A program made the translations under genes and the position numbers. A DNA stretch of 32,171 nucleotides from Bdellovibrionota bacterium (lineage in GTDB: Bacteria > Bdellovibrionota > Bdellovibrionia > Bdellovibrionales > JAEYZS01), in assembly GCA_963169515.1 (NCBI GenBank), contig CAUJEF010000079.1, positions 1 to 32,171 on the forward strand. Reading direction: 5' to 3'. The number at the start of each line of letters is the position of its first letter. Position 1 is the first letter of the stretch. The notes below the pieces were generated by a model. That model did no database searches. It saw only the letters and a list, made by a program, of their open reading frames with translations, and had not been told where the DNA came from. Below are positions 1,230 to 25,934 of the stretch, in pieces.

Positions 1230-2314
1230 AATTTTTTGCGATTGTACGCCTTTCGATCTAAGCTTTGCCACTTTGCGAGACTGTAGATCCTGGCCTTCAG
1301 CTCACCTCTGGCCTTGAGAGCGCGCTTCTTCACAAGGCCCGCAACGTCACGCTCAAGTGTGCGGCGGGGAACATCGGGTAACCATTCCACGACATTCTGC
1401 ATAGAGAACTCTTCGGTTTTTTTGGCGTGAGCCAAGATTTTTCTCTGCCGCGCTTCAGGAGTTTTCCCGGCGCTTTCTCTTAAAAGTTTTCGACCTTCTT
1501 CGACAACAGTCTCAGCCGAAATAGCAAAACACTCGGCCAGAAACTCAAGGATCGGATGAAGTGCACCAAGTGACCGACTTTGACGAATGGCTGTGTAGTA
1601 GCGATCACGGTTTTGCATGATGGCGGTTTCACTCGGCACGAATCTCGCCAGGCGCTGCCCGCCGAGCAGCAACAGAAGGTGCTGCATTAGCCTCATTGTG
1701 CGGCCATTGCCGTCGGCAAAAGGGTGTATGGACACCGCAATGAAGTGAAAGGCGAATGCTCTGGTGTACGGGTTCATGTCCTTCGTGTCATCCAGCCATC
1801 GCCATAAATCATCCAGCAAGTCGTTTAGTTCATGGGGCTGCGGGCACTCGTCTATTTTCTCGCCTGTGGCGGCGTTGACAATGCTTACGGGTATGGTGCG
1901 CACACGGCCACATTGACGTTCTTCAATAAGGCTTTCGGTGACGAGGCGCTGGAGATCACACATGTCCGCAAGTCTGATGGGCCGAAAATCTTCGATCAGC
2001 CGCTCTACATAGTCGAGAGCTTCATGATAGTTCTGAACTTCTTTGATGTCTTTCTTGGACCCAGCCACTCTTTTGCCTTGAAGGACGGCCGTCACTTCAG
2101 TTTCGCCGAGTGGGTTTCCTTCAATCTGGTTGGAATAGGTGATCGCTCGCACCTTGGCCTTCCTTAGCAGCTTCACTTCCTGGGGGGTGCCCAGATACTC
2201 GTCCAAGAAGGGCTTGGTTTCAGCGATACGCATAAGCCACGAGACCATGGCGTCGGTATTGGTGACCTCATAAGGTATCTTCAGGCGGCTAAGGTGGGGG
2301 TATCTGGAGTCCAT
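1226..2314 (-). CDS. Fic-family protein (AMP-transferase) with N-terminal inhibitory motif
   Basis: This encodes 362 residues, a usual length for Fic proteins with an N-terminal Fic_N domain and a C-terminal winged-helix-like tail. The catalytic motif HPFADGNGRTMR is intact at residues 197-208: H197 is the catalytic base, D201 the acidic Mg-binding position, and the GNGR loop binds the nucleotide phosphates. Residues 61-66 (SNQIEG) fit the inhibitory motif (S/T)xxxE(G/N), with E65 as the residue expected to block ATP binding, so the enzyme is probably self-inhibited (class II Fic). Such enzymes transfer AMP from ATP to a target protein; the target here is unknown. Its promoter overlaps operator-like repeats, suggesting autoregulation through the C-terminal helix-turn-helix region. 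Confidence 0.93.
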   Translation of the reverse strand: MDSRYPHLSRLKIPYEVTNTDAMVSWLMRIAETKPFLDEYLGTPQEVKLLRKAKVRAITYSNQIEGNPLGETEVTAVLQGKRVAGSKKDIKEVQNYHEALDYVERLIEDFRPIRLADMCDLQRLVTESLIEERQCGRVRTIPVSIVNAATGEKIDECPQPHELNDLLDDLWRWLDDTKDMNPYTRAFAFHFIAVSIHPFADGNGRTMRLMQHLLLLLGGQRLARFVPSETAIMQNRDRYYTAIRQSRSLGALHPILEFLAECFAISAETVVEEGRKLLRESAGKTPEARQRKILAHAKKTEEFSMQNVVEWLPDVPRRTLERDVAGLVKKRALKARGELKARIYSLAKWQSLDRKAYNRKKF

Positions 2315-2319
2315 GGCCT

Positions 2320-2348
2320 ATTATCCGCCACTTATTCGCCACTGTCAA
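2320..2348 (-). promoter_or_regulatory. Promoter of the Fic gene, consensus sigma-70 type
   Basis: On the minus strand, TTGACA (2343-2348) and GATAAT (2320-2325) are separated by exactly 17 bp. The expected transcription start, 6-7 nt after the -10, falls on or next to the ATG at 2314. The mRNA would therefore be leaderless, and no Shine-Dalgarno sequence is visible. The spacer and the -10 overlap the repeats described at 2321-2411, so a protein bound there would block the polymerase. Confidence 0.75.
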
Positions 2349-2411
2349 GTTGGCGGATTAAACCCAAAAGCTCTTTTCCGCCACTTATCCGCCATCCGCC
2401 AAGTTGGCGGA
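2321..2411. repeat. Operator-like repeats over the Fic promoter
   Basis: The motif CCGCCACTTAT(C/T)CGCC occurs at 2325-2340 (as CCGCCACTTATTCGCC) and at 2378-2393. The related AAGTTGGCGGA occurs at 2347-2357 and 2401-2411. The last copy completes the perfect inverted repeat TCCGCCAAGTTGGCGGA (2395-2411). The layout of a palindrome plus tandem half-sites over a promoter is that of a repressor operator. From memory, similar GGCGGATAAGTGGCGGA arrays occur before other Fic genes; this was not checked. Confidence 0.65.
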
Positions 2412-2418
2412 AAGCCAG

Positions 2419-2454
2419 GTCTAGTTCAGCTAAGTATCAGAAATCTCGATAAGT
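2419..2454 (+). promoter_or_regulatory. Two-block promoter-like element, copy 2
   Basis: GTCTAGTTCAG (2419-2429) and TCTCGATAAGT (2444-2454) are separated by 14 nt, exactly as in the copy at 449-484. If it acts as a promoter it would read rightward into the 3' end of copA and give an antisense RNA. If it is not a promoter, the two same-orientation copies bracket the HNH and Fic genes and could mark the edges of an inserted module. Confidence 0.35.
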
Positions 2455-2470
2455 TATGGCACTCAGTGTG

Positions 2471-4771
2471 TTACTTAACAGATCGAAGACGTATTGAATT
2501 TGCGATAACCGATACGGAGCTTAGGCTCATGGCTGCGGCGGCAAACATCGGACTTAGCAAGGCTCCCCACACGGGATACAGAATTCCGGCGGCAATGGGT
2601 ATGCCGACGGTGTTGTAGAAAAATGCAAAAAATAGATTTTGATTAATGTTGCGAATGGTTGCTTCGCTTAGATTGCGGGCGCGCAGAATTCCTGTCAAAT
2701 CACCATTTACGAGTGTCACGTGGGCTGCACTGATCGCCACATCGGTGCCCGTACCCATTGCGATACCAACCTGCGCTTGAGCGAGTGCGGGTGCATCGTT
2801 AATTCCGTCACCAGCCATGGCAACGAATTTGCCTTCAGACTGCATTGATTTTACAATTTCAGCTTTTTTGTCAGGCAAAACTTCGGCCATAATCTTTTCG
2901 ATGCCAACCTTTTTGGCGACTACGCCGGCAGTCTTAGCATTATCTCCTGTGACCATTACCACTTCAATGCCTTGTGCTTTTAGCTGTGAAATTGCAGTAA
3001 CGGTGGATTCTTTGACCGGATCGGTTACGCCTAGAAGTCCGGTAAGTTTGTTTTCAACAGCCACATACATAACTGTCTGGCCATCTGAGCGAAGCGAATC
3101 GACGTCTTTTTCGTGGTGGGAAACATCGATTTTGAAATCAACCATCAACGCCTTATTCCCAATCGCAACAAGTTTATTGGCAACGATAGCTCTCGCCCCT
3201 TTGCCAGTGATCGACTCGAAATTCTGAACAGATTGCAATGATAATTTTTTATCTTTGGCGCCGGAAACAATCGCGTGCGCAAGGGGATGCTCGCTTGATT
3301 GCTCAAGGCTTCCTGCCAGGGTCAGCAGCTCTGCTTCGGATACGCCAAATGTTTTAACGGAAACAAGTTTTGGCTTTCCTATGGTTAATGTCCCGGTCTT
3401 ATCAACAATTAGGGTATTCACCTTTCGTAACATTTCAATGGCCTCAGCATTTTTGAATAATACACCCATGGTTGCGCCCCGGCCCGTTGCGACCATGATC
3501 GACATTGGCGTTGCCAAACCAAGGGCACAAGGGCACGCGATGATGAGAACGGCAACAGCGTTCACAAGCGCATACCCCATACGAGGGTCTGGCCCCCACA
3601 ATCCCCAAATGATTGCGGTGAGTACCGCAACGAAAATCACAGTTGGAACAAATACAGCTGAAATTTTATCAACCATCTTTTGTATTGGTGCGCGAGATCG
3701 TTGTGCGTCTGCCACCATTTGCACAATTTGTGATAGCAAGGTGTCTTTGCCTATCTTTTTTGCCTCTACCACAAGCGAACCTGTCCCATTTATTGTTGCG
3801 GCAATGACTTTTGAATCAGTTTCTTTTTCTACGGGAATCGGTTCACCGGTAACCATAGATTCATCAACAGATGATTGGCCCGAAATTACGACTCCATCAA
3901 CAGGGATTTTTTCACCGGGACGGACTCGCAACTTGTCGCCCACCTGAATGTGTTCAACGGGAATATCTGATTCGCTACCGTCATTATTTATTTTTCTGGC
4001 CGTTTTAGGTGCCAATCCCAGCAATGCTTTGATTGCAGAACTGGTCTGACTTCTTGCCTTAAGCTCTAAAACTTGGCCAACCAGGACAAGGGTCACGATA
4101 ACGCTCGCGGCCTCAAAATACAGGCCAACTTCATTCGTCGAAGGATCGCGGAATGCTGCTGGGAAGATATGTGGAAAAAACGCGGCAACGAGACTGTAAA
4201 CATAAGCAACCCCAACGCCCAAACCAATAAGGGTAAACATATTTAGATTTTTATTTTTCAATGACTGCCAAAAGCGTTCAAAAAAGGGCCAGCCACCCCA
4301 GAGTACAACGGGCGTAGCGAGCAATACCTCAAACCACGTCATCAGTTTATGTAAATGAGATCCAGTTGCCCAATGGCGAACCCCCATGGCTATGAAAAAC
4401 AGCGGAGCAGTTAGTGTGAGGCTCACCAAAAGCCGTCTTTTCATGTCCAAATATTCACTTTGATCTTCTGGCTGGTCGAGCGATATCGTCACTGGCTCCA
4501 ACGCCATTCCACAAATAGGACAATTTCCCGGACCAATTTGACGAACTTCGGGGTGCATTGGACAAGTGTATTCGGCATCGGTTGCAAGATTTAGGCTTAC
4601 AGATTTGTCTAAATATTGATTTGGGTTTGCATCGAACTTTGTTTTACATTTTGGGTTACAGAAAAAATAACTTTTTCCTTGGTATTCGGATTTGCCGCCT
4701 TTTGCTCCGTTTGGGTTTACCTTCATTCCGCAGACGGGGTCTGTAACATCTAAACCATGATCAGATTTCAT
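2471..4771 (-). CDS. copA: Copper-translocating P-type ATPase (CopA/SilP type)
   Basis: This encodes 766 residues from the ATG at 4771, which has AGGTG just upstream; a longer frame from 4852 would run deep into the preceding gene. The N-terminus has a YHS domain (about 9-54; C14, C38, C42) and a heavy-metal-binding motif at 68-92 (YTCPMHPE, then CPICGM), in place of the usual GMTCxxC ferredoxin-like domain. The ATPase core is intact: TGEP actuator loop, membrane CPC motif (C413, C415), phosphorylated D457 in DKTGTLT, SEHPLA, and [10 protein letters not shown]. It should pump Cu(I) or Ag(I) from the cytoplasm to the periplasm. The start overlaps the preceding membrane gene by 11 nt, making it the last gene of the ECF sigma operon. 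Transport of other soft metals cannot be excluded. Confidence 0.95.
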
Positions 4772-5309
4772 GCTGCACCTTTTTAAATTTCCATACGATC
4801 TCAGCAGCAGCACATCCACCTGAAAGCGCTCCCAGCAACCAAAGCCCGACAAAAACTAAGGCAAACTCTGCCCCAAAAAAGAAAAATGCAGCCAAAGAAA
4901 AAACTGATAGCGAAAACGCCTGTAAAAATTCTGTTCTACGCAGAACTCGTACTTCTTCAGTGTTTAAGAAGTAACCCGCCACCAGAATAGAAAGAGCAGT
5001 AAATAAAATTCCACAGCTTACCATGCAAAACTTGTGACCACCGATTGCCATAAACCAATCGGCCAGAGATTTTTCAGTGCCAAAGGGATTAATTTCGAAC
5101 TGATGACAAATGGCTAAAGACAATGTGCCGACGGCCAGATGAATTCCAAAAAGCTTTAAGAACACTAAAATAGCTGAAGGATTTAAAGCCTTGTGTACGT
5201 GCTGCAAAATTTGATTGGATATCACTTCGGGAACCGACACGTTTTCGCTGACTTGAATGAAATCTTTAAATTCCTCAACCCATTCTTTTTCTGTAAGTTT
5301 CGATTTCAT
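4761..5309 (-). CDS. Four-helix membrane protein, candidate metal-responsive anti-sigma factor
   Basis: This encodes 182 residues. A soluble N-terminus of about 45 residues is followed by four hydrophobic segments (about 46-68, 94-115, 131-146 and 149-164). It begins 3 nt after the ECF sigma stop and overlaps copA, which is the usual place for an anti-sigma factor. No standard anti-sigma domain name was recognised from sequence alone. Possible metal ligands cluster at the membrane: H57, C68-H69, H92, C95, M96, C99 and C166. My inference is that the N-terminus holds the sigma factor and the Cys/His cluster senses periplasmic copper. It could also be a transport accessory protein. Confidence 0.6.
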
Positions 5310-5312
5310 GGT

Positions 5313-5855
5313 TTAATCCTTCTTTAAAAAATTCTTTCGAATTTTTGCAAGACCTCGACTCACAATTTGGCGAACATTCGCTGGGCTTGTTTTAATATCT
5401 TTTGCAATCTCTTCAAAGGACCAGTCATCCAAATAACGAAGCTCAATAGCGCGCCGTTGGCTGACGGGTAGCTCTTTGATGGCGGTTTCCAAATTAAGCT
5501 CAAGCGCGATTTCTTGTATTTGATGGGGTAGATCCAAATTATTAGAATCCAGCGAAATTGGGCTGGATTTTGAAGATTTTAAAAAATCAAACCAGGCGTT
5601 TTTAGAAATTGCAAACAACCAAGGCAGGAATGGGTATTGTTTTAAATACTGTGACCGTGCTTTGTGTAATTTTATAAAAACTTCTTGCAAAAGATCCGAG
5701 GCCGCCTCATTGGAAGTCCTTTTTTTAAAATATTGATATACCTTGGGGCTGTGACGCCGATACAGGATTTCAAAAGCTCCGGAGTTACCAGTTTGGTAGT
5801 AAGCCATTAGCGCCTCGTCCGGTAAGTTGTCTAAATTGTCTGGATTTTTGTTCAT
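5313..5855 (-). CDS. ECF-type RNA polymerase sigma factor
   Basis: This encodes 180 residues, a standard length for group IV sigma factors. Region 2 lies at about 24-95 (FEILYRRHSPKVYQYFKKR, then DLLQEVFIKLHKAR, then PWLFAISKNAWFDFLK). Region 4 lies at about 120-175 (LPVSQRRAIELRYLDDWSFE, then SPANVRQIVSRGLAKIRK). The ATG at 5855 has GAGGG 5 nt upstream. It is the first gene of the operon with the membrane protein and copA. It is divergent from the cus-like operon, and a matching promoter faces each way. This suggests that it activates its own operon and copper efflux when released from the membrane protein. Confidence 0.93.
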   Translation of the reverse strand: MNKNPDNLDNLPDEALMAYYQTGNSGAFEILYRRHSPKVYQYFKKRTSNEAASDLLQEVFIKLHKARSQYLKQYPFLPWLFAISKNAWFDFLKSSKSSPISLDSNNLDLPHQIQEIALELNLETAIKELPVSQRRAIELRYLDDWSFEEIAKDIKTSPANVRQIVSRGLAKIRKNFLKKD

Positions 5856-5864
5856 TCATACCCT

Positions 5865-5895
5865 CTAATACGAGTTTGCACCCCAAATTGTGACA
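5865..5895 (-). promoter_or_regulatory. ECF-type promoter of the sigma/anti-sigma/copA operon
   Basis: On the minus strand, TGTCACAA (5888-5895) and CGTATTAG (5865-5872) are separated by 15 bp. The same pair of octamers with the same spacing faces the other way at 5960-5990. A -35/-10 pair shared by divergent operons next to an ECF factor is strong circumstantial evidence for its recognition site. The expected start lies only a few nt before the ATG at 5855, so the leader is very short. Confidence 0.8.
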
Positions 5896-5959
5896 GAGCA
5901 AAATCAGAAAGTCAAAAATTCTAGTCTTTTCAAATAGATAAAAATAATAAAAAATAGAC

Positions 5960-5990
5960 TGTCACAAATCGTTAGCCATTTTCGTATTAG
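5960..5990 (+). promoter_or_regulatory. ECF-type promoter of the cus-like efflux operon
   Basis: TGTCACAA (5960-5967), 15 bp, CGTATTAG (5983-5990). Both octamers are identical to those of the leftward promoter at 5865-5895, and the spacers are unrelated. The expected start falls at about 5996-5998, on top of the first candidate start codon of the outer-membrane gene, so the transcript is leaderless or starts translation at the ATG at 6002. Confidence 0.8.
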
Positions 5991-5995
5991 GTGGT

Positions 5996-7189
5996 ATGGG
6001 TATGAGATCGCACATTTTAATAGGCGTCCTTTTAGTTTCGCAGTTCGCGCGGTCAGAGGACCGACTGACACTTGAGGTTTTCTTAAACAATGTCAAAGTG
6101 CATAACCTTAGTTTAAAAATTGAGGCCGCAAAGACCGACATCGCCCAGGCGAAATCCACAGGGATAACGCTTCCCCCGCCGACGGTGGGACTGATCCAAA
6201 TGGATATGCAAAATGACACTTTAGCAAATGGTTTAGAGTTGAGCCAAATGATCCCGTTCCCAACGAAACTGACAAGTAATCATTCCGCCAGAAAATATGA
6301 AGCGCTTGCACAAAAAAAAATGAGCGAAGCCGAAACCAATGAAGTGTTAGCCATGGCAAGGCTGGCTTATATCTCTCTGTGGGCGAATCAGGAAAGATTG
6401 ACCATAGCTCTTGAAAGAAAATCTATCGTTGAACAGCATATTAAGCTTTCGATGTCGGCAGTTCGATCTGACAACTTTTTAAAACTTCATACCTTAAAGG
6501 CCGAGTCAGATCGCGACTTATTGGAAAATGAAATAGAGGGCCTGCGGGCTACTATTTTAGAGAAACAATTGCAACTCGCCTTGTATATAAACGCTGACCT
6601 GGATTCGTTTAGACCTGTTTTGGCAGAACCGCCGCTTTCTGTAATTCCCAGCAAAGATATTTTTCAAGGCGCGCCGCAAATTGAGGCGGCACGCTTTAAT
6701 TATGAGAGCTTCAAATCAAAAGAAACTGAAAGCAAATCATCATGGCTTCCTGATTTCGAACTTCGGTATAAGCAAATGGAAAAAACAGATATGTCTCCGG
6801 GCTACAAAGAATATATGGTGGGTGTTTCTGTACCGTTTACCTTCTTTTGGGAGCCCTATTCTACATCGAAAGCAGCTAAGGCAGAGAGTTTAAGTGCGCA
6901 ACTCAGTTATAAAAATGAAAAGCAAAAAGTCGAAGGCGCCGTCGCCACATTGCTTGCTAAGGCTGAGTCCTTAAAAAAACAAATCATGATCATAAAAGAA
7001 AAATTACTACCTCGTGCCGAAAAACGGGTGAAGATCGCACATAATCTTGCTCCACGTGATATGGAAACTCTCCAGGACCATCGGGAAACCATGGAGGCAT
7101 TTCCTGACCTGAAGCTTAAAAATTTAGATCTGCGAGAGCAGTATGAAGAAGTCGTTTCAGAACTAGAAAAGTTTGTAAAAAGGGATTAG
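5996..7189 (+). CDS. cusC: Outer-membrane efflux protein, TolC/CusC family
   Basis: This encodes 397 residues (395 if it starts at the ATG at 6002, which the promoter position favours). Residues 1-20 form a signal peptide. The rest is mostly long alpha-helices with two similar halves (LTLEVFLNNVKVHNLSLKIE and a second helical bundle after about residue 215), as in trimeric TolC-type exit ducts. It is about 50-60 residues shorter than typical CusC, and no lipobox is present. It is the first gene of the cus-like unit, 21 nt before the adaptor gene, and should carry copper or silver across the outer membrane with the CusB- and CusA-like proteins. Confidence 0.85.
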   Translation: MGMRSHILIGVLLVSQFARSEDRLTLEVFLNNVKVHNLSLKIEAAKTDIAQAKSTGITLPPPTVGLIQMDMQNDTLANGLELSQMIPFPTKLTSNHSARKYEALAQKKMSEAETNEVLAMARLAYISLWANQERLTIALERKSIVEQHIKLSMSAVRSDNFLKLHTLKAESDRDLLENEIEGLRATILEKQLQLALYINADLDSFRPVLAEPPLSVIPSKDIFQGAPQIEAARFNYESFKSKETESKSSWLPDFELRYKQMEKTDMSPGYKEYMVGVSVPFTFFWEPYSTSKAAKAESLSAQLSYKNEKQKVEGAVATLLAKAESLKKQIMIIKEKLLPRAEKRVKIAHNLAPRDMETLQDHRETMEAFPDLKLKNLDLREQYEEVVSELEKFVKRD

Positions 7190-7210
7190 CTGAAAAAAAA
7201 GGGTTAGAAG

Positions 7211-8056
7211 ATGAAGAAACTAATTTGGATTGCTCCAATAATCATAATTTTAGGCCTGTGGGCTTCACACATGTTCACCAAAAAATCCGACGTTAGAACT
7301 AAGGCGGCGGTGAGCCAAGCCGATTCGAGTTCCTATTGGACCTGTCCGATGCATCCACAGGTTCACATGGATCACCCAGGCGAATGTCCCATTTGTCATA
7401 TGAATTTAGTACAAGTGAAAAAACAAATTCAAGAAGAACACAATGTAACAGTAACTGACGGAGCCACAGTGCAGGGGACATCACAACAGTTGGAACTTGC
7501 CGGTATTCAAAAAGCACAGGTAGAAAAAATGTCTTTGTTTGCAAAGATTCCGGTGGCGGGCAGATTTGTATCTTCCAATTTCGTGGCCTTTCAGGTTTAC
7601 GAAAGCGATCTCCGTTATGTTAAGCCGGGTGTCACGTTTAAGGGGGAAAGTAGCGCAATGTCGGATGAAGAAATCAGTGGCGTTGTAACTTCTGTTGATT
7701 CAATCATAGATCCCACAAGTCGCACCGTGCGTGCGATTGGCCAAGTCAAAAAAGGCCCACACGGGATCATTGCAGAAACGAGTTTCAGTGGTGTGATAGA
7801 ACTAGAGCTTAAAGATAAAATTGCTATTCCAGAAAGCTCTGTTCTTCATAGTGGCCAGGGCGATATAGTGTATTTATTTGGCAAAGACAATATGCTCACG
7901 GCAAAGGTTGTGAAACTTGGGGCAAAGGCCGAAGGGTTTTATGAGGTCATCAGTGGCTTACAGCTGGGCGATATTATTAGTTCAGGTCCTAACTTTTTAA
8001 TTGATTCAGAGGCAAAAATTCGCGGAGTTACAGGAAATGATAAACGCCATCATTGA
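7211..8056 (+). CDS. cusB: CusB-like periplasmic adaptor, short form lacking the helical hairpin
   Basis: This encodes 281 residues, against roughly 400 for CusB. An N-terminal membrane anchor (about 3-20) is followed by a heavy-metal-binding domain (about 43-70: YWTCPMHPQVHMDHPGECPI, then CHMNL), the same type as in the copA product here. The sequence then passes from the membrane-proximal strand AGIQKAQVEK to the beta-barrel region (VAFQVYESDLRYVKPG) with very little between. The biotinyl/lipoyl half-motifs and the coiled-coil hairpin that normally contact TolC seem to be missing. The C-terminal membrane-proximal domain is present (VISGLQLGDIISSGPNFLID). The reading frame is open, so this is a compact protein and not a frameshift. 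The cusA gene overlaps its end by 20 nt. Confidence 0.85.
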   Translation: MKKLIWIAPIIIILGLWASHMFTKKSDVRTKAAVSQADSSSYWTCPMHPQVHMDHPGECPICHMNLVQVKKQIQEEHNVTVTDGATVQGTSQQLELAGIQKAQVEKMSLFAKIPVAGRFVSSNFVAFQVYESDLRYVKPGVTFKGESSAMSDEEISGVVTSVDSIIDPTSRTVRAIGQVKKGPHGIIAETSFSGVIELELKDKIAIPESSVLHSGQGDIVYLFGKDNMLTAKVVKLGAKAEGFYEVISGLQLGDIISSGPNFLIDSEAKIRGVTGNDKRHH

Positions 8057-11000
8057 TTTTTCGGCAAGAAATCGCTTTTTGGTTCTGTCTGTTACGGCGG
8101 TTTTTGTATTACTGGGGTTTTATTCTTTAAAAAAAATTCCGCTGGACGCGATTCCTGATTTATCCGATACACAAGTCATTATCTATTCAAGATGGGATCG
8201 TTCGCCTGACATTATGGAAAACCAAGTAACCTATCCCATCGCTTCGTCAATGTTGGGTTCGGCGAAGGTTAAAGCCGTTCGCGGATTTTCAGATTATGGG
8301 TTTTCATATGTTTACGTTATTTTTGAAGATGGGGTTGATCTCTACTGGGCACGAAGCCGTGTTTTGGAAAGTTTGAATAGAATCACATCATCAATTCCCC
8401 AAGGGGTTAAAACTGAAATCGGACCTGATGCTACAAGCGTGGGTTGGGTGTATCAATATGCGCTTCGGGACGAATCGGGAAAGTTTAACCCTTCCGATCT
8501 GAGGTCTATGCAGGATTGGCTTATTCGTTTTCAGTTGCAGTCGGTTCAAGGCGTTGCCGAAGTCGCCCCCGTTGGTGGGTTTGTAAAACAATATCAAGTT
8601 AGAGTTGATCCAACGAAGTTAGCGCTTTTCCAAGTGACTATGGGTGAAGTCATGAATGCTGTTCGCAATTCAAATCAAGAAAGCGGCGGCAGGACCATCG
8701 AATTTTCTGGTGCGGAGGCTATGGTAAGAAGCCGAGGTCTGGTTGATAAAACAGAAGACATTGAAAATGCTGTTGTTGCCTATAATCCACGCAGTCGCGC
8801 TCCAATTATATTAAAGCAGGTGGCTACTGTTTCTGTAGGGCCTGAAATGAGACGCGGCATCACGGATTTCAACGGCCTCGGTGATACCGTTGGAGGTATC
8901 GTTGTCATGAGGCAGGGAGAAAATGTTCCTGTCGTTATCGAAAGAGTAAAAGAGAAACTTGCAGAGATTCAGAAATCTCTTCCAGAAGGTGTTAAAATTA
9001 TTTCGGTTTATGACCGCTCTGAAATTATTGATCGTGCAATGGAAACTCTAAGATCTGCCTTGGTCGAAGAGCTTATAATTGTAAGCCTCATTATTTTGCT
9101 TTTTTTATGGCATATTCCTTCGGCACTTGTGCCAATTGCCACCATACCTATTTCTGTTCTTATAGCGTTTATTCCGCTCTATTTAATGGGGCAGACATCG
9201 AATATCATGTCACTTTCTGGAATTGCCATTTCCATTGGGGTACTTGTTGACGGCGCGATCGTCGAAGTCGAAAATGCTTATCGAAAAATTCAACATTGGG
9301 ACGAGGGTGGACGGAAGGAAAGTTTTTTCGATGTTCGTCTTGAGGCACTGAAAGAGGTTGGCCCTTCGGTTTTCTTTTCACTGCTTGTGATCTCAGTTTC
9401 GTTTATTCCGATTTTCACATTAATAGATCAAGAAGGCCGCCTTTTTAAACCACTTGCTTTGTCAAAAAACCTCACTATGGCTATTGCGGCAATTCTCGCT
9501 GTCACCCTTGATCCTGCAATGCGTATGCTTTTTGCAAGAGCTGACAATTTTAAAACAAAGAATAATTGGTTAAATAAGATTGGTAACGCAACACTTGTTG
9601 GCACCTATTATTCTGAATTTAAACATCCGATCAGCAAGCGTCTTTTTAAAATTTATGAGCCCGTTATTAATTGGGTTTTGGAACACAAAAAGAAAACTTT
9701 AGGATTTGCCTTGGCCTGCATGCTTTCGGTTATTCCTGGGTTTATGTTGTTGGGGTCAGAATTTATGCCGACTCTGCATGAAGGAAGTCTTCTTTATATG
9801 CCAACAGCGCTCCCCGGGATTTCTGTTAGCGAGGCACAAAAATTACTTACCAAGCAGGATGAAATCATAAAATCGTTTCCTGAAGTAGAGTCCGTTTTCG
9901 GAAAGGCGGGGCGCGCAGACACGTCGACAGACACGGCGCCACTAAGTATGTTTGAAACGACTATTGTTTTGAAACCAAAAGCCGAGTGGCGTAAACATAT
10001 TCGCAGCGAAGAACAACTTATCGATGAGATGAATGAAAAATTGAGCTTTATTGGGATGCCCAATATATGGACCATGCCGATTAAAAACCGTATCGATATG
10101 CTTTCAACAGGTATTCGCAGCCCCATCGGTATAAAAATTTTTGGTCCCGACCTTAAGACAATACAATCCATCGGTGAAAATATAGAAAAAGAACTTAAAG
10201 CACTGCCGGCCACGCGAACAGTCGTAGCTGAGCGTATCGCGAGCGGTTATTTTTTGGATATCGATTTTGATCGTGAAAAACTAAAGGTGTACGGGCTTTC
10301 TTTGAAAGAGGCTCAAGATCAAGCCATGATTGCGATTGGTGGAGAAAATGTTTCGCAAATTTTGGCGGGGCGTGAACGTTATCCGATTCAAGTGCGTTTG
10401 GCTCCTGCTTTTAGGCAAGATTCGAAAAATATAAAAAGAATTTTGATAACAAGTCCTACGGGAGCTCAAATCCCTTTGTCTGAAATAGCAAAGGTTCGCT
10501 ACAAAGACGGACCTTCCATGATTCGTAATGAAAATGCCTCTCTTGTTGGCTATGTCTATGTCGATATTGATATGAATCAAACCGATATTGGCACTTATGT
10601 TAAAAGTGCCCAAAATCTGTTAAGTAAAAACATTCAAATTCCCAAAGGTTACCTTATCAATTGGAGCGGGCAGTTTGAAAATATGGAACGTGTGAAAGAA
10701 CGATTAAAAACCGTTATACCAATTACGCTTATTCTTATTATTTTTCTTCTTTATTTCAATACAAAGTCTTGGGTAAAAACGGGTATCGTGCTGTTAGCGG
10801 TTCCATTTTCATTGATTGGTGCCGTCTGGCTTCTTGTGTTTTTGGGATATAATCTTTCGATAGCGGCTTGGGTGGGCATGATAGCGCTTTTGGGCCTGGA
10901 TGCCGAGACCGGTGTTTTTATGTTGATGTATCTTGATTTGGCTTTTAACGATCGCGTTAAAAAAGGACAAATGAATTCCAGCTTGGATTTAAAAGCTGCA

Positions 11001-11216
11001 GTAATAGAAGGCGCTGTCCATAGGATACGGCCTAAACTTATGACAGTGGCGGCGTTGTTCATGGGTTTAATTCCGATTATGTGGTCTATTGGCACCGGAT
11101 CAGACGTAATGAAACGAATCGCAGCCCCAATGATGGGCGGATTGTTTACGTCATTTGCCTTGGAACTTTTGATTTATCCTGTTGTTTATTATGCATGGAA
11201 AGAGCGCACCCTATGA
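8037..11216 (+). CDS. cusA: Heavy-metal RND efflux pump, CusA/CzcA family
   Basis: This encodes 1059 residues from the ATG at 8037, which has AGGA nearby; a longer frame from 8001 lies fully inside the adaptor gene. The first helix (RFLVLSVTAVFVLLGFYSLK) is followed by a typical RND periplasmic loop (PLDAIPDLSDTQVIIYSRW). Charged residues lie in the central helix segment GVLVDGAIVEVENAYRK, where proton relay occurs in this family. The second half repeats the plan, with NIWTMPIKNRIDMLSTGIRS, a Met-containing segment near the porter-domain metal route in CusA. The length is normal. It probably exports Cu(I)/Ag(I), given copA and nirK on either side; a divalent-metal Czc role is less likely. Confidence 0.95.
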   Translation: MINAIIDFSARNRFLVLSVTAVFVLLGFYSLKKIPLDAIPDLSDTQVIIYSRWDRSPDIMENQVTYPIASSMLGSAKVKAVRGFSDYGFSYVYVIFEDGVDLYWARSRVLESLNRITSSIPQGVKTEIGPDATSVGWVYQYALRDESGKFNPSDLRSMQDWLIRFQLQSVQGVAEVAPVGGFVKQYQVRVDPTKLALFQVTMGEVMNAVRNSNQESGGRTIEFSGAEAMVRSRGLVDKTEDIENAVVAYNPRSRAPIILKQVATVSVGPEMRRGITDFNGLGDTVGGIVVMRQGENVPVVIERVKEKLAEIQKSLPEGVKIISVYDRSEIIDRAMETLRSALVEELIIVSLIILLFLWHIPSALVPIATIPISVLIAFIPLYLMGQTSNIMSLSGIAISIGVLVDGAIVEVENAYRKIQHWDEGGRKESFFDVRLEALKEVGPSVFFSLLVISVSFIPIFTLIDQEGRLFKPLALSKNLTMAIAAILAVTLDPAMRMLFARADNFKTKNNWLNKIGNATLVGTYYSEFKHPISKRLFKIYEPVINWVLEHKKKTLGFALACMLSVIPGFMLLGSEFMPTLHEGSLLYMPTALPGISVSEAQKLLTKQDEIIKSFPEVESVFGKAGRADTSTDTAPLSMFETTIVLKPKAEWRKHIRSEEQLIDEMNEKLSFIGMPNIWTMPIKNRIDMLSTGIRSPIGIKIFGPDLKTIQSIGENIEKELKALPATRTVVAERIASGYFLDIDFDREKLKVYGLSLKEAQDQAMIAIGGENVSQILAGRERYPIQVRLAPAFRQDSKNIKRILITSPTGAQIPLSEIAKVRYKDGPSMIRNENASLVGYVYVDIDMNQTDIGTYVKSAQNLLSKNIQIPKGYLINWSGQFENMERVKERLKTVIPITLILIIFLLYFNTKSWVKTGIVLLAVPFSLIGAVWLLVFLGYNLSIAAWVGMIALLGLDAETGVFMLMYLDLAFNDRVKKGQMNSSLDLKAAVIEGAVHRIRPKLMTVAALFMGLIPIMWSIGTGSDVMKRIAAPMMGGLFTSFALELLIYPVVYYAWKERTL

Positions 11217-11271
11217 CCCATAGCCACATCACGCAATCAGGGACTCGTTTACAATAAAAGTGTGGACATTT

Positions 11272-11287
11272 TGTTATCAATTTGACA
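11272..11287 (+). promoter_or_regulatory. Crp/Fnr-type binding site upstream of nirK
   Basis: TGTTA, six bases, TGACA fits the general Crp/Fnr-family form TGTNA-N6-TNACA, and the palindrome extends outward (TTTTGT at 11269-11274, ACAAAA at 11285-11290). Nitrite reductase genes are commonly controlled by members of this family (FNR, DNR, NnrR). Its centre lies about 45 bp before the start expected from the TATAAT at 11313, near the usual activator position. Confidence 0.5.
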
Positions 11288-11289
11288 AA

Positions 11290-11318
11290 ACGGTCCCGCC
11301 ACGGTCCTAGACTATAAT
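11290..11318 (+). promoter_or_regulatory. nirK promoter -10 with direct repeat in place of a -35
   Basis: A perfect TATAAT lies at 11313-11318, but there is no good -35 at 17 bp. The region instead holds a direct repeat, ACGGTCC at 11290-11296 and 11301-11307, 11 bp apart and so on the same helix face. A good -10 with a poor -35 suggests a promoter that needs an activator, in line with the palindrome just upstream. Confidence 0.5.
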
Positions 11319-11337
11319 AATATTGGAAAGGCATCTT

Positions 11338-12756
11338 ATGAGATTACATCTAGCAACTCTACTACTGATTCCAGTTCTTTTTGGATGTTGGAAAAAAAAC
11401 GGGGCGAAGCTTGAAGACCCCGAAAAGCTGGCAAAAGTAACGGCTCAACTGACCTATGCCCCTGAGGTTCCAGCACCGCTGAATCGTGGCCCATCAAGGG
11501 TCACAGTAAATCTGGAAACTAAAGAGGTGATAAAGCGTTTGGCCGATGGGGTCGACTATACATTTTGGACATTTGGCGGGAGTGTGCCGGGACCATTTAT
11601 TCGGATTCGTGTGGGCGATTATGTTGACTTCACGTTAAGCAATCATCCGAATAGTAAAATGCCTCACAATATCGATCTCCACGCTGTGACCGGGCAAGGC
11701 GGCGGAGCTGAAGGCTCGTTCACTGCTCCCGGACATAGCTCGACATTTTCGTTTCGTGCTTTGAATTCGGGCTTGTACATTTATCATTGTGCAACTGCGC
11801 CCGTGGGTATGCATATCGCTAACGGTATGTATGGGTTGATTCTGGTTGAGCCAGAAGAAGGCTTGCCCAAAGTAGATCGTGAATTTTATGTCGTACAAAG
11901 CGAATTTTATACCAAAGGGAAATATGGCGAGCGTGGTTTGCAACCGTTCGACATGGAAAAGGCAATTGCTGAAAATCCAGATTACGTCGTATTTAACGGT
12001 TCCGTCGGAGCTGTTGCAAACGGTAATTCTATGGAAGCAAAAGTCGGCGAAAAGGTCCGCATATTCGTTGGAAATGGAGGGCCGAATTTAGTGTCTTCAT
12101 TTCACGTAATTGGTGAAATTTTTGACCATGTATATGGCGAGGGTGGGGCCGTTGTTTCGCAGAAAAATGTTCAAACAACATTGGTGCCTGCGGGTGGTTC
12201 AGCCATTGTCGATTTTGTTGTTGATAACCCATCGACACTGATTTTAGTCGATCACTCAATATTCCGTGCCTTCAACAAAGGCGCACTTGGTATGTTAAAG
12301 GTTCCGGGCGAGGTTAACAAGATGATCTATACTGGAAAAACGGTAGATTCTGTTTACTTAGCAGAGGGTGGTGCAATCCAAACCATGCCGGATGAAAAAG
12401 CGGCTCCAGCGTTTGCAGCAAAAGATTTTTCTGAACGCTTGAAAGCGGGAGAAGCTGCATACAAAGCAAACTGTGCAGCTTGCCATCAACCTAATGGTGA
12501 AGGTATTGCGAGCGTATTTCCCCCACTTGCAAAATCAGACTTCTTAATGGCAAATAAGAACCGCACGATTGATATCGTGATTAAAGGACTTGAGGGCGAA
12601 ATCACGGTTAATGGTCAAAAGTATAATAGTGTAATGCCTTCGTTGGGGCTATCGGACGAGACAATCGCTAACGCACTCACTTATGTACGCAACAGTTGGG
12701 GAAACAAGGGAGACGAAGTCACGCCTGAGCAGGTTAAGGCGCGCAGAGGTAAATAA
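11338..12756 (+). CDS. nirK: Copper nitrite reductase with fused C-terminal cytochrome c, lipoprotein
   Basis: This encodes 472 residues from the ATG at 11338 (GGAAAGG upstream), preferred over a TTG at 11323. The signal peptide ends in a lipobox (LFGC, C17), so the enzyme is lipid-anchored and periplasmic. Two cupredoxin domains follow. Type 1 copper ligands are H110, C151, H159 and M164. Type 2 ligands are H115, H150 and H306. The catalytic pair is D113 and H256. The pattern matches two-domain NirK, which reduces nitrite to nitric oxide. Residues from about 365 form a c-type cytochrome (CAACH at 379-383, late MPSLG as probable axial Met), giving a built-in electron donor. It leads a tight operon with nirV and sco. 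Confidence 0.95.
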
Positions 12757-13505
12757 TGTTTTTTTGGGGGACGTTGCTCCTCATTCTAAACTCGGCACTG
12801 GCTCAATCGCCATCTGAAGTTTTGATTAAGAAAGGAACATACGTTCCTTTCTTTCGAGATTTAAATGAAAGTGATCAAGAGCTAGGACCGCTGGTTGTCG
12901 ATAAATATCCTGTTACCAACAAAGATTTCTTGGCATTTGTGAAAAAAAATCCGTCATGGAAAAAATCGCAAGTCAAAGCGTTATTTGCAAATAATAGATA
13001 TTTGGAACACTGGAAAGACGATTTGTCAGTTTCAGCAGATATACGTGATTTGCCGATAACAAATGTTTCTTGGTTTGCTGCGCGCGCCTACTGTCGCAGT
13101 AAGGGAAAGAGACTTTTAAAAACGAGTGAATGGGAATACGTTTCCGATGCTCAAAATAAGCAAAATCTTGATTTGATTCTAAACTGGTATGGCAAAACGG
13201 GGACAAAGTTAAAACCTGTCAGTGAGGCCGTTGAGAACATTTACGGTATCGTAGGAATGCATGGGTTGATTTGGGAATGGGTTGATGACTTTGGATCTGC
13301 GATTCTGTCGAATGATTCGCGTAAATCCAATGAATCAAGTAAATCGTTATACTGCGGTAGCGGTTCTCTAAAGGCAAAGGACCCTAGTCAGTACGCAACA
13401 TTTATGCGCTTTGCCCACAGGAGCAGTCTGCGCGCAGATTCCGTTGGAAGAACCCTGGGGTTTAGATGTGCTAAAGATCTTATCACAGATAAGGGAGATT
13501 TATGA
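12756..13505 (+). CDS. nirV: NirV-like protein, formylglycine-generating-enzyme (SUMF1) fold
   Basis: This encodes 249 residues. Its ATG overlaps the nirK stop by 1 nt (TAATG). Residues 1-16 are a signal peptide ending in ALA. The rest has hallmarks of the FGE-sulfatase fold: VDKYPVTNKDFLAFV, LPITNVSWFAARAYCRSKGK, LLKTSEWEYV, GMHGLIWEWVDDF and GRTLGFRCA. Family members beside nirK are called NirV; their exact role in nitrite reductase maturation or activity is not established. The cysteines needed for formylglycine formation are not obviously present as a pair (C108 and two near the C-terminus), so a structural or assembly role is more likely than sulfatase activation. Confidence 0.85.
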   Translation: MFFWGTLLLILNSALAQSPSEVLIKKGTYVPFFRDLNESDQELGPLVVDKYPVTNKDFLAFVKKNPSWKKSQVKALFANNRYLEHWKDDLSVSADIRDLPITNVSWFAARAYCRSKGKRLLKTSEWEYVSDAQNKQNLDLILNWYGKTGTKLKPVSEAVENIYGIVGMHGLIWEWVDDFGSAILSNDSRKSNESSKSLYCGSGSLKAKDPSQYATFMRFAHRSSLRADSVGRTLGFRCAKDLITDKGDL

Positions 13506-14092
13506 GAACACTGATAATTAGTTTTAGTTTTTTCTGGTTAGCAGGGATATCAATTGCGAGCGAAAGCTGCCATGAGGATACGAAATCGACAAAGCAAGCG
13601 CTTCCAGGGGATTCGCTTTATAACCTTTCATCGGAATGGATGAATCAAAAGGGGCAAACTGTAAATATCGCAAGTTTGCAAGGCCAATATCGTTTTATCG
13701 TTATGGCATACACGAAATGTCAAACGGCTTGCCCTCTTATGGTAAAAACCATTCAGCAGGTGCGATCTAATTTGCCAAAAAATAAAAACAAGCAGCTAAG
13801 GGTTGACGTTTTTTCATTCGAATCCGAAGCTGAAAATAAAGAATCCTTGGCCGGGTTTGTGCAAAAATATAAATTGGACGACACATGGTCTGTGTATAAA
13901 GCCGATGCTGGCAGCGTCGCAGAGCTTGCGGCAGCCCTTGGGGTTCAGTACAAGAGGATGTCATCTGGTGAATATATTCACTCAAATTTACTGTTCGTAT
14001 TAAACGATAAAGGCCAAATTATCGCTAAGCACGAGGGCCTTTCCAAACCGGGCAAGGATTTTCTCGCCCAGGTCAGCAAAGCTATACCCTGA
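13502..14092 (+). CDS. SCO1/SenC-family copper chaperone
   Basis: This encodes 196 residues with a signal peptide (about 1-20). Its ATG overlaps the nirV stop (ATGA). The thioredoxin-like SCO core has the copper-binding CxxxC (C73 and C77 in TKCQTACPL) and the distal histidine H160 (GEYIHSNLLFVLNDKG), the three ligands known for Sco proteins. SCO proteins deliver copper or reduce cysteines for CuA sites in cytochrome oxidase or N2O reductase. Here the operon position suggests loading of the NirK copper sites. An early Cys-His pair (C23-H24) just after the signal peptide might add a metal contact. The gene ends 41 bp from the convergent lipoprotein gene. Confidence 0.92.
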   Translation: MRTLIISFSFFWLAGISIASESCHEDTKSTKQALPGDSLYNLSSEWMNQKGQTVNIASLQGQYRFIVMAYTKCQTACPLMVKTIQQVRSNLPKNKNKQLRVDVFSFESEAENKESLAGFVQKYKLDDTWSVYKADAGSVAELAAALGVQYKRMSSGEYIHSNLLFVLNDKGQIIAKHEGLSKPGKDFLAQVSKAIP

Positions 14093-14104
14093 GAAAGCCA
14101 CCCT

Positions 14105-14138
14105 TTGCGCATTGCACATCAAAAAGGTACGGCCTACC
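14105..14138 (+). repeat. 34-bp direct repeat, copy 1
   Basis: This is identical over 34 bp to 15676-15709 in the same orientation. The core is AAAAAGGTACGGCCTACC, whose end has GGTA/TACC inverted arms around CGGCC. The pair brackets the lipoprotein gene at 14134-15534. This copy supplies that gene's TAG stop codon (14134-14136). Confidence 0.95.
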
Positions 14139-15534
14139 TAGGACATGGAATAAACGCTTTCGAGAATATGACTTGGTCAAATCGATGGGAATATGCCGAA
14201 TTTGTTTGGCCGTTTTGGTAAATCGCCAAAAGCAAAGTGTTCCATCCGTTTCGTGCAACAGCCCCAGAGGTGTTTCCTGATCCATCAAAGTAAGCAGGAT
14301 AAATAACATCCCAAATTTTGACATATTTTGTATCACCTTCGTGTGCTGCCCAGACTTCAAATCTTGTGTCGGCAACGCCATTGTGGCCTGGGGTGACGTG
14401 ATAGAGAAGCGTGTCCCAGCCAAAGGAATAGGACCAACATCCGCCAACATTATTGTTGCTTGGGTCGCAAACTCCGGGGAGCTCAGATCCAAGTTGAATT
14501 CCTGGTTCGTTTGAATTTACAGCGACGTCTGCAAGGGGAGCATAGTTGTAGCCTTGGTAAACAGAGTGAAAGTTTGGAACACCCACACCGCCGGGACGTT
14601 GAAAAAAGGCGGAGTAGGTCACAAGCTCCTGGGCCGTGTAAGAATTATTTGTTGTTGAAAGCCATACAAGTTTGCCGACCTGTGTGTTTCCGACGGTTGT
14701 TCTAACTGGATCAGCTTTTACTCGAACTTGTAAATAAAAATCTGTTCCATCAAAAAAGGAGTTTTGGTAATCAGCGTGGCCATACCAACCGGGCTTAGCA
14801 GTTGATCCCCAGTTATAGAGTTGTCCACCGCCATCTGTTGCAACAAAGTTTTGTGGAGTGAGAGTGCCACTCGCGCCTGGGTCATCGACGCCACGTCCAT
14901 TACCAGCACCAACAATTGGACTGAATGGGCGGTTCCAGTAGGTTCCATCTCCTGATGATCCGGCGGGACGATCAATTTGAAGAAAGCCCCCACCATCTGC
15001 GCCACCAGAAGAAACCCAGTGGGTGTTGGCCGCGTAGGCGCTACCAATGGCTCTTGGGTCGTTTCCGCCTCTGTATCCGCCGGTCCAGCGGAATGCGTTC
15101 ACTTCGGCTGCTGAATCGAAATTGTGGTACCAAACTACGCTGGGGCCACTAACTCGCTCGTTCCAATCGCCCGTTGAACCAGGAGGTGGTGTTGGCACAG
15201 GAGTTGGTGTTGGTGGCCGTGGAGTTGCTGTCGGAGGCACAGGGGTCGGTGTTGGTGGTCGTGGGGTTGCTGTCGGAGGCACAGGGGTTGGTGTTGGTGG
15301 TCGTGGTGTTGCTGTCGGGGGCACAGGAGTTGGTGTTGGTGGTCGTGGAGTTGCTGTCGGAGGTACAGGGGTCGGTGTGGCAGTGGGAACAACTGTTGGT
15401 GCGGGGGAAGTGCCAGTTGAAGATTGTTGATTAAATCCCTTAATGGATTTGAACCCTTCGCCACAGTTATTGAACAATGCTGTGAGCGATATTATCGTAA
15501 CTACGGTTCCCCATTTTTGTATGACTTGTTTCAT
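14134..15534 (-). CDS. Surface lipoprotein 1: LFNNCG anchor, Pro/Thr repeats, jelly-roll-like domain
   Basis: This encodes 466 residues, with GGGGG shortly upstream of the ATG. The signal segment ends in [18 protein letters not shown]24 is the likely lipidated cysteine although Asn at -1 is not a classic lipobox. A linker of about 80 residues contains four exact-length 14-residue repeats of the form [14 protein letters not shown]. The C-terminal 340 residues ([57 protein letters not shown]) look like a beta-sandwich of the lectin/polysaccharide-lyase kind and resemble the second lipoprotein at 18354. A carbohydrate target on a surface is plausible but unproven. The last residues and the stop come from the 34-bp repeat, so the original 3' end may be lost. 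It is on the opposite strand to its three paralogues. Confidence 0.8.
15203..15370 (-). repeat. Four tandem 42-bp coding repeats (Pro/Thr linker)
   Basis: Four head-to-tail units of exactly 42 bp lie at 15203, 15245, 15287 and 15329, differing only at scattered bases. Each encodes the 14-residue unit [14 protein letters not shown] of lipoprotein 1. The near-identity points to recent expansion by slippage or unequal crossing-over, so repeat number may vary between strains. Confidence 0.9.
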
Positions 15535-18085: not shown

Positions 18086-18353
18086 AAGAGCCTCACTTTC
18101 TGTCGCTTTCGCGATCATTACAGCTTTTATTATGGGCTATAAACCTTAAATCGATATTAAATGGATATTAAAAGTAATTAATGCTGCTATGGTTTGTGCC
18201 CATCAACAGTCTAAATAAATGCGTTTTCACAAAAACATCCGACCAACTAACAGACAGTGTAAAAGGGACGTGCGTATCAAATTGAAAAAACATAGAAAAT
18301 TCAATGGGGAAAGTTGGCTTACCTTATGCAAATTATAGTTGGTTGGGGGGCCT

Positions 18354-19556
18354 ATGAAAAGGGAACAACTTGTATATATCACTTTGATACTTGCGCTTAC
18401 GGTATTGTTTAACAACTGCGGCGAAGGGTTCAAATCTATTAAGGGATTTAGCCAGCAGTCTTCTGCTGGCATATCTCCAACACCGCCCCCTGTGCCTCCA
18501 ACGGTAACCCCGGGACCGCCAACACCGACTCCTGTGCCTCCGACAGCAACTCCAAGACCCCCAACGCCGACGAGCACCCCAATTGTGGACCCACCACCAT
18601 CGGATTTTTCGACTCGATGTGCAGATCCTAATGTCATTCGTTGCCATGGTTTTGAGGCGGGAACGCGTTTTAATATTTATCGTGGGGAATATTCTTTAAA
18701 TTATACGCACGATTATATTCCAGGAAACGGTGGCAGGGTTGGAATGCAGTTAGATAATTCAATAAGTGCATCTGGGCTATCTTCATTGCGAGCAGATTAT
18801 GTATCTAACAGCGGATCGGATGTTGCGGGCGCGTTTGTAGTTCGATTCAGTGATGATGGAAGGACCCAGTTGGGATTAAATGAAGAATTTTATGTTCAAT
18901 ATCGCGAACGGTTTAGCCCAGAAGTTCTGCGTGGGTTTAACAGTGATAAATATGCCTATTCAACATGGAAACAATCAATTATCGGCGCGGGCGATGAATT
19001 GACCAATGGGCAACCATCAAAGGTCAGTTGGTCTTGCACAGTTCTGGAGATGGTTCTGCAATCTTATGCTATAAATCGTTCCGATGGCCAGAAAGTATAT
19101 CCAGGATTTTATCATAATTGCGGTTACTATTTTGGAATGGATTATTGGCATCCTCAGGGCAATCAAGTGGCGCTACAACATCAAGGGCCGCCGTATTGCT
19201 TATACCCGAACGATCCGCAAAAAGGTTGTTTTTTATACCAACCCAATGAATGGATGACATTTCAAGTGCACATTAAAATCGGCAGTCGTTGGGCGCGAGA
19301 TAACAATGATCAAGTTCCTGGATCCAGAGTAGAGGTCTGGGCGGCTCGGGAAAAGCAACCGAGTGTAAAAATATATGATTCTAATAATAGTCATCCGACC
19401 GGCTTTCCAATCATAGGCGATGGGGTTGTGAAGTATGGGAAGGTTTGGCTTACTCCGTATACTTCATACAAAAACTCAAGCGAAACCCATGCGCCAGGCT
19501 TTATGTGGTACGATGATTTGATTATTTCTCGCGGTAAAATCGCAGACCCGAAATAA
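18354..19556 (+). CDS. Surface lipoprotein 2: LFNNCG anchor, Pro/Thr linker, jelly-roll-like domain
   Basis: This encodes 400 residues from the ATG at 18354, with GGGGGG just upstream. The signal segment ends in [17 protein letters not shown], nearly identical in protein and DNA to lipoprotein 1. A shorter Pro/Thr linker follows (two units of the [13 protein letters not shown] kind). The C-terminal part (CHGFEAGTRFNIYRG, FYVQYRERFSPEVL, NEWMTFQVHIKIGSRW, RVEVWAAREK, FMWYDDLIISR) has the strand pattern of polysaccharide-lyase or lectin-like jelly rolls. Many Tyr, Trp and Asn residues fit carbohydrate contact. It is first in a three-gene operon with lipoproteins 3 and 4, with a gap of only 2 nt before the next. 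Confidence 0.82.
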   Translation: MKREQLVYITLILALTVLFNNCGEGFKSIKGFSQQSSAGISPTPPPVPPTVTPGPPTPTPVPPTATPRPPTPTSTPIVDPPPSDFSTRCADPNVIRCHGFEAGTRFNIYRGEYSLNYTHDYIPGNGGRVGMQLDNSISASGLSSLRADYVSNSGSDVAGAFVVRFSDDGRTQLGLNEEFYVQYRERFSPEVLRGFNSDKYAYSTWKQSIIGAGDELTNGQPSKVSWSCTVLEMVLQSYAINRSDGQKVYPGFYHNCGYYFGMDYWHPQGNQVALQHQGPPYCLYPNDPQKGCFLYQPNEWMTFQVHIKIGSRWARDNNDQVPGSRVEVWAAREKQPSVKIYDSNNSHPTGFPIIGDGVVKYGKVWLTPYTSYKNSSETHAPGFMWYDDLIISRGKIADPK

Positions 19557-19558
19557 TT

Positions 19559-20857: not shown

Positions 20858-20868
20858 TGATTAGGAAT

Positions 20869-25893: not shown

Positions 25894-25934
25894 AAGGCAT
25901 CTAACTTATTAAAAAAAATTAAGATGCCTTTTTT
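25894..25934 (+). terminator. Intrinsic terminator after the EEP gene
   Basis: AAGGCATCT (25894-25902) and AGATGCCTT (25922-25930) form a 9-bp stem with an A-rich 19-nt loop. The T-run starts inside the right arm and continues to 25934. It lies 38 bp after the EEP stop and overlaps the last codons of the convergent antitoxin gene. Confidence 0.75.

Follow-up and report, generated by a model that had tools for sequence, protein, structure and literature searches.

Several described systems offer a background for the locus analysed here. The promoter of ECF41 sigma factors, TGTCACA-n16-CGTC, has been studied experimentally (PMC3426412). In Caulobacter, a membrane anti-sigma factor with conserved cysteines, NrsF, controls the metal-responsive ECF factor SigF (PMC3511200). 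For CorE, no anti-sigma factor was found nearby (PMC3107203). CnrY is a class II anti-sigma factor (PMC7406223). In Bdellovibrio, the genes downstream of two RpoE-like genes are described as having no significant homologues in other bacteria (PMC3464611). The locus that we compare with these systems consists of two divergent operons and lies within the window, that is, the whole stretch of 32,171 nucleotides that was analysed.

The reverse-strand operon begins with an ECF sigma factor of 180 residues (5313..5855, -), composed of sigma regions 2 and 4 only, with PF04542 (3.1e-12) and PF08281 (4.3e-14)/PF04545 above cut-off and 99.8 bits against TIGR02937 (cut-off 42.9). It ends eight residues past region 4, carries no C-terminal extension and contains zero cysteines. 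The next gene encodes a membrane protein of 182 residues (4761..5309, -), a candidate copper-sensing anti-sigma factor. It is followed by a Cu(I)-type P-type ATPase, CopA (2471..4771, -), identified by profile matches and motif (YHS, HMBD, CPC), whose likely start is the ATG at 4771, overlapping the 3' end of the membrane-protein gene. The forward-strand operon encodes a CusC-like outer membrane efflux protein (5996..7189, +; PF02321, 5.7e-22), a CusB-like adaptor with a heavy-metal-binding (CPMHP) domain (7211..8056, +; PF19335, PF16576 and motif) and an RND pump of the CusA/CzcA family (8001..11216, +; PF00873; TIGR00914 at 1065 bits, cut-off 701), which, read by eye, probably begins in reality at the ATG near 8037. 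Beyond a 106-base gap and in the same direction come a NirK-like copper nitrite reductase carrying a cytochrome c domain at its C-terminal end (TIGR02376, 349 bits, cut-off 296), an FGE-type (FGE-sulfatase-domain) protein, which we take to be NirV-like, and an SCO1-like protein (together 11323..14092, +; PF00034, PF03781 and PF02630 across the interval). To judge from their placement, these genes are possibly the tail of the cus transcript.

Other features of the window are recorded here in their own right. Four proteins, at 14134-15534 (-) and 18339-22062 (+), share an N-terminal motif of the NNCG.(G/E)FK(S/A) type followed by Pro/Thr-rich linkers; two of the four contain 42-base tandem repeats, and their C-terminal parts differ. 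A toxin-antitoxin-like pair, a Gp49-family protein with an HI1420-type antidote, occupies 25919-26562 (-), and a KGG stress-repeat protein of 182 aa maps to 26699-27247 (-). A near-perfect sigma-70 promoter, TTGACA-17-GATAAT, is present at 2348-2320 (-), directly 5' of a Fic-domain gene.

The gap between the ECF and cusC reading frames measures 140 bases, with 32% G+C, and contains two exact copies of TGTCACAA-N15-CGTATTAG on opposite strands, at 5865-5895 (-) and 5960-5990 (+). In the putative promoter of the ECF operon, the -35 element TGTCACAA is an exact match at 5888..5895 (-) that is kept ahead of ECF orthologues, and the -10 element CGTATTAG, with its conserved core CGTA, was placed at 5865..5872 (-) by pattern match and locus comparison. 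The putative cus operon promoter has exact matches to the same elements at 5960..5967 (+) and 5983..5990 (+). The two -35 boxes face each other 64 bases apart, and the spacers, TTTGGGGTGCAAACT and ATCGTTAGCCATTTT, are mutually unrelated. The sequence-only reading had reported two divergent copies with identical octamers and unrelated 15-bp spacers, a description that is correct in every detail. About 1e-7 exact copies are expected in the gap from base composition, and it is very unlikely that two arose there by chance. When up to three mismatches were allowed across the window, the same two matches were returned, each with zero mismatches, while shuffles gave 0.22 expected matches and two or more in 3 of 100 cases.

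The genome-wide scan that the sequence-only reading had called for, covering 2,375,564 bases in 173 contigs, found two sites with zero or one mismatch, both of them in the window gap; the next-best site has two mismatches, CTTA replacing CGTA. The looser pattern TGTCACA-N14-18-CGTA also recovers these two sites only, which is insignificant by itself in one genome, since the reversed control pattern has two matches too. Thus, neither the strict nor the looser scan found a wider regulon in the window's own genome, and as far as such patterns can predict it, the regulon there is the two divergent operons only. The proposal that CopA, the membrane protein and the RND pump form one regulon is in line with a gene content pointing to copper, its extent in this genome being limited to these two operons.

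The branching out of this promoter into other genomes was followed by comparing loci. Of the 143 genomes of the class, 62 have ECF relatives at E<=1e-18. The loci to be compared were selected for similarity, 58 by an ECF match (L040-L097) and 40 by a match to the membrane protein (L148-L187), the latter a selection from more than 150 matches listed and mostly from other classes of the phylum. The anchored set comprises 84 loci, namely 83 of the 98 fetched plus the window itself, those without a labelled ECF gene, without the anchor motif, or with too little sequence or N being left out; near-identical loci (e.g., L155, L156, L157, and L160) were kept separate, and the counts are of loci and not of independent events. 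At these 84 ECF loci, TGTCACAA-N14-16-CGTA is present in the ECF direction in 48, as a mirrored copy in the divergent direction in 40, and in both in 33, the corresponding means in dinucleotide shuffles being 0.005, 0.005 and 0. With the looser [TG]GTCACA-N14-18-CGT, 67 loci outside L080-L097 yield 55, 47 and 43, respectively. The spacer after TGTCACA, which is 16 bases long when counted in this way, is nearly constant over 103 sites (16 in 92, 15 in 7, 17 in 4). The A right after TGTCACA is kept in 94 of them, and the fourth base of CGTA, where A, T or C was permitted, is A in 99, both window sites reading CGTA; the constancy of TGTCACA and CGT themselves is not evidence, because both were built into the search pattern. 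The TTAG tail of the -10 octamer is only loosely kept in the 103 sites. The idea that the octamer pair gives the recognition sequence of the ECF factor is strongly supported by its recurrence at orthologous ECF genes and, mirrored, at divergent metal genes, with the refinement that the conserved part is a TGTCACA-A-N15-CGTA core and that the last four bases of the second octamer are loose.

A search of the 143 class genomes with the stricter TGTCACAA-N14-15-CGTAWTA, which involves no choice of loci, gave 49 sites in 31 genomes, and the reversed pattern gave 0. By hand count, the membrane-protein family is represented in 28 of the 31, no gene being detected in the other 3; some genomes with the family have no strict site. 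In relatives, the divergent gene belongs either to a cus-type efflux operon or to a trio made up of an unknown exported protein of ~210 aa, an HMA-domain protein and a membrane protein of ~120 aa, and the genes downstream of the promoter are metal genes (cus-type efflux, HMA-domain proteins, CopA neighbours). Single sites away from the ECF gene lie ahead of exported proteins of ~140 aa with AHGEDK.GPNGG, one of these proteins being encoded ahead of a CusA-like gene (L059). These distant sites, together with those at membrane-protein genes lacking an ECF neighbour, suggest that what defines the regulon is the promoter rather than simple gene proximity.

The strict site in the ECF direction is absent from 36 of the 84 loci, including all 17 counted loci of L080-L097, 16 of which come from genera g7 and g13, with an ECF identity of 30-37%. 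On the divergent side, 10 of these 17 have TGTCACAA-N15-CCTAAT, one (L093) has a normal site and 6 have neither. In one genus of this group, TGTCACAA and a spacer of 15 bases persist in the divergent promoter, CCTAAT stands for CGTAAT, and the ECF gene is without a site of its own. The CCTAAT variant and the missing ECF site possibly represent a drift of -10 recognition and a loss of autoregulation.

In an alternative scenario, the inverted TTGTGACA/TGTCACAA elements might be the two halves of an operator that binds a CRP/FNR- or Rex-like dimeric regulator and is placed between two ordinary promoters. The TGTGA/TCACA elements do resemble CRP-type half-sites, and CsoR- or MerR-type genes near some relatives indicate that other regulators exist in these clusters. 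However, the distance from -35 to -35, that is from TGTCACAA to TGTCACAA, varies from 0 to 185 bases in the back-to-back pairs of 43 loci while that from -35 to CGTA is near-fixed, which points to promoter geometry in each half and to no repressor-like geometry for the pair; on this ground the repressor-operator reading was rejected. Furthermore, single-sided copies exist, the sites accompany an ECF gene, and sigma-70-like sites in 2300-14200 are about as numerous as chance predicts (23 found, 20.7 expected). We therefore consider an operator highly improbable. A terminator scan also returned about chance numbers. In L149, L153 and L176, the -35 elements of the two promoters abut or overlap (as TTGTGACATGTCACAA in L153), and simultaneous occupancy of both promoters would hardly be possible at these loci. 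As far as sequence comparison can establish it, the autoregulatory divergent ECF promoter pair is real and deeply conserved, ordinary in kind and new in its members, and we hold this part of our explanation to be very probably correct.

The sequence-only reading had further proposed that both transcripts are leaderless. By general ECF promoter geometry, transcription would start some 11-13 bases after the C of CGTA. In the window, the ATG of cusC (5996) lies 13 bases from the C of CGTA, in frame, with a second in-frame ATG at 19 (6002), and the ECF ATG (5855) lies 17 bases from it. Start distances were counted at 15 cusC-type and 55 ECF sites; a few sites were left unassigned, among them the ECF-side sites of L040 and L054, each of which has an ATG at C+17. 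An in-frame ATG or GTG falls 12-14 bases after the C in 13 of the 15 cusC-type sites, in 10 of them at exactly 13 and with ATG; in-frame start codons at this distance are found in 1 of 14 trio sites and in 0 of 55 ECF sites. The window and three relatives have their ECF start codon at C+17 and the others mostly have it at C+18-24, usually behind a purine-rich stretch that resembles a ribosome site. Since the start codon at C+12-14 coincides with the expected transcription start, the 5' end of the cus transcript would fall on the AUG or beside it, and this transcript is predicted to be leaderless, whereas the C+17-24 spacing would leave a short leader on the ECF-side transcript. The spacing thus favours the proposal for the pump side and not for the sigma side. 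The constant spacing at cusC may partly reflect shared descent.

The most interesting part of the system is the unnamed anti-sigma candidate. Its gene lies directly 3' of the ECF gene in 57 of the 58 ECF-chosen loci, and its family profile is found in 194 of 368 genomes of the phylum searched. In an alignment of 39 copies, C68, Q70, C95, C99 and W157 are invariant, and all 98 labelled copies have the motif CxQ[FL]...CxxxC. This gene order and this motif are the reasons for taking the 182-aa protein as a metal-sensing anti-sigma factor. The 39 members and the window copy have no Pfam family above noise, no solved structure was found among relatives, and a plasmid search gave no match. In the structural model (pLDDT 93, pTM 0.82), a pair of short helices at the N-terminus (7-20, 28-42) is followed by four long helices (46-67, 82-114, 127-144, 151-181). 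Provided that the N-terminus faces the cytoplasm, C68 would mark the outer end of helix 1, with C95 and C99 located in the neighbouring part of helix 2; modelled in this way, the protein resembles an anti-sigma factor whose metal site is embedded in the membrane. Foldseek returned no PDB fold match below E 0.75, and in a second fold search photosystem I subunit L and ABC-type membrane domains were matched with a Z no higher than 7.0, middling matches that we take as common helix packing. A model of the ECF factor fused to the membrane protein (pLDDT 90, pTM 0.72) has single domains at an rmsd of 1.7 A to 2h27_D and 2.2 A to 4lup_C; the sigma2/sigma4 arrangement of known ECF/anti-sigma complexes was not reproduced (whole-chain rmsd 13.7 A vs 1or7_B), and modelling thus lends no support to binding between the two proteins.

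The membrane-protein gene stands without a neighbouring ECF gene in L175, L183, L184 and L187, where it faces cusB- and cusA-type genes, and in L183 and L187 a promoter of the TGTCACA/CGTA type lies directly ahead of it. Such an arrangement fits a sensor role but also roles other than that of an anti-sigma factor. One may thus ask whether the protein is instead a co-regulated metal-handling protein, the ECF factor being controlled otherwise. Its occurrence beside efflux genes in these 4 of 40 membrane-protein-fetched loci would agree with such a function, as would the lack of any match, in sequence or in fold, between it and known anti-sigma factors. Yet its position behind the ECF gene is almost constant, and the ECF factor has no autonomous sensor, having neither extension nor cysteine in the window; among relatives, 61 of 94 ECF reading frames are cysteine-free. 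We regard a mere metal-handling role as rather unlikely, and favour by a modest degree, from sequence evidence, the assignment of the 182-aa protein as a copper-sensing anti-sigma factor.

The following mechanism can be envisaged. The two sites would be the -35 and -10 elements of divergent promoters, both read by the adjacent ECF factor. One promoter would drive the factor's own operon, with the 182-aa membrane protein and CopA, and so provide autoregulation, and the other would drive the CusC-CusB-CusA pump. In the resting state, the 182-aa protein would tether the ECF factor to the membrane through the cytoplasmic helices at its N-terminus. When copper, or a comparable soft metal, reached the membrane in excess, C68, C95 and C99 would sense it, whereupon the sigma factor would be freed and both promoters would fire; copper export would then reset the switch. 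This explanation as a whole, a divergent pair read by the ECF factor together with a copper-sensing membrane anti-sigma factor, appears likely to us. Copper is the natural guess for the signal, since copper-type genes flank both promoters. Nevertheless, the promoter pair could be real and the signal a different one: the cysteines might sense a stress of the envelope or redox kind, or else silver or some other soft metal. Silver is carried by Cus pumps too, and in some relatives the trio, with its HMA protein and two proteins without a Pfam match, stands in place of cus. NrsF, the nearest analogue, answers chromium and cadmium (PMC3511200). Against a signal other than copper, the transporters of the window are of copper type, with a CPC-motif CopA, a CusB with CPMHP and a pump of the CusA/CzcA family, and we deem such a signal unlikely.

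In this context, we tentatively put forward a broader proposal, which as a whole falls somewhat short of probable. The 182-aa protein might found a family of integral-membrane anti-sigma factors, undescribed so far and spread across the phylum, in which Cu(I) is sensed directly by three invariant cysteines lying in the membrane or close to it (C-x-Q-F behind helix 1 and C-x3-C in helix 2). Together with the ECF factor and the mirror promoters, it would form an ancient copper switch of the phylum, in which the pump transcript is leaderless and the sigma transcript is not. A literature search of papers open without subscription, the ECF group catalogue being outside it, found no published description of the family. 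With our analysis, what began as a pattern spotted by eye has become a defined sigma-promoter pair that can be tested and is conserved across a large bacterial phylum. The analysis also flags an unannotated membrane-protein family as a candidate for a metal-sensing anti-sigma factor and names particular residues for mutation. The compact divergent promoter is also offered for metal-responsive circuits.

Of the described systems, SigF-NrsF (PMC3511200) shares with the present one a small polytopic membrane protein with conserved cysteines, encoded right downstream of the sigma gene, and its heavy-metal response and autoregulated operon have predicted counterparts here; the 182-aa protein would work like NrsF. 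NrsF itself is a PF06532 protein with six transmembrane segments and cysteines 131 and 181 (PMC3511200), whereas the 182-aa family has four long helices, three invariant cysteines and no PF06532 match. The latter profile matched 0 of 39 family members at E<=0.1 and had no match in the window's own genome; hhalign of the family against 11 NrsF proteins of the phylum gave a probability of 0.8%, and NrsF occurs as a separate family in 40 of 357 genomes of the phylum. Membership of the 182-aa protein in NrsF was rejected by both the profile and the profile-profile comparison.

CnrY is a single-span protein with a separate periplasmic sensor, whereas the 182-aa protein carries its cysteines on four long helices. 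The CnrH-CnrY-CnrX system likewise centres on a metal-efflux ECF factor, and CnrY binds sigma by two helices (PMC7406223), the 182-aa model also starting with two (7-20, 28-42). In class II domains of the CnrY type, two short cytoplasmic helices bind sigma4 and sigma2; the fused model gave no such docking for the two helices of the 182-aa protein. CorE of Myxococcus xanthus is another ECF factor; the copper export genes under its control include copA and the gene of an HMA protein, and it senses copper by its own cysteine-rich C-terminal domain (PMC3107203), whereas the window ECF ends after region 4 and is free of cysteine. With 0 cysteines in 180 residues and no such domain, the latter was rejected as a CorE-type factor. 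The comparison with ECF41 concerns the promoter. Both systems have a -35 TGTCACA with 16-base spacing, and in both the conserved promoter precedes the sigma gene and a neighbouring target (PMC3426412). They differ in the -10, CGTC in ECF41 and CGTA here, in the fused C-terminal regulatory domain of ECF41, which the window ECF lacks, and in the target, a COE enzyme in ECF41 and metal efflux with a co-encoded membrane protein here (PMC3426412). The -10 and the missing fused domain led us to reject ECF41 membership of the window ECF. Since the promoters match at the -35 and the window ECF is without the ECF41 domain, the same -35 TGTCACA would be used by two different ECF types.
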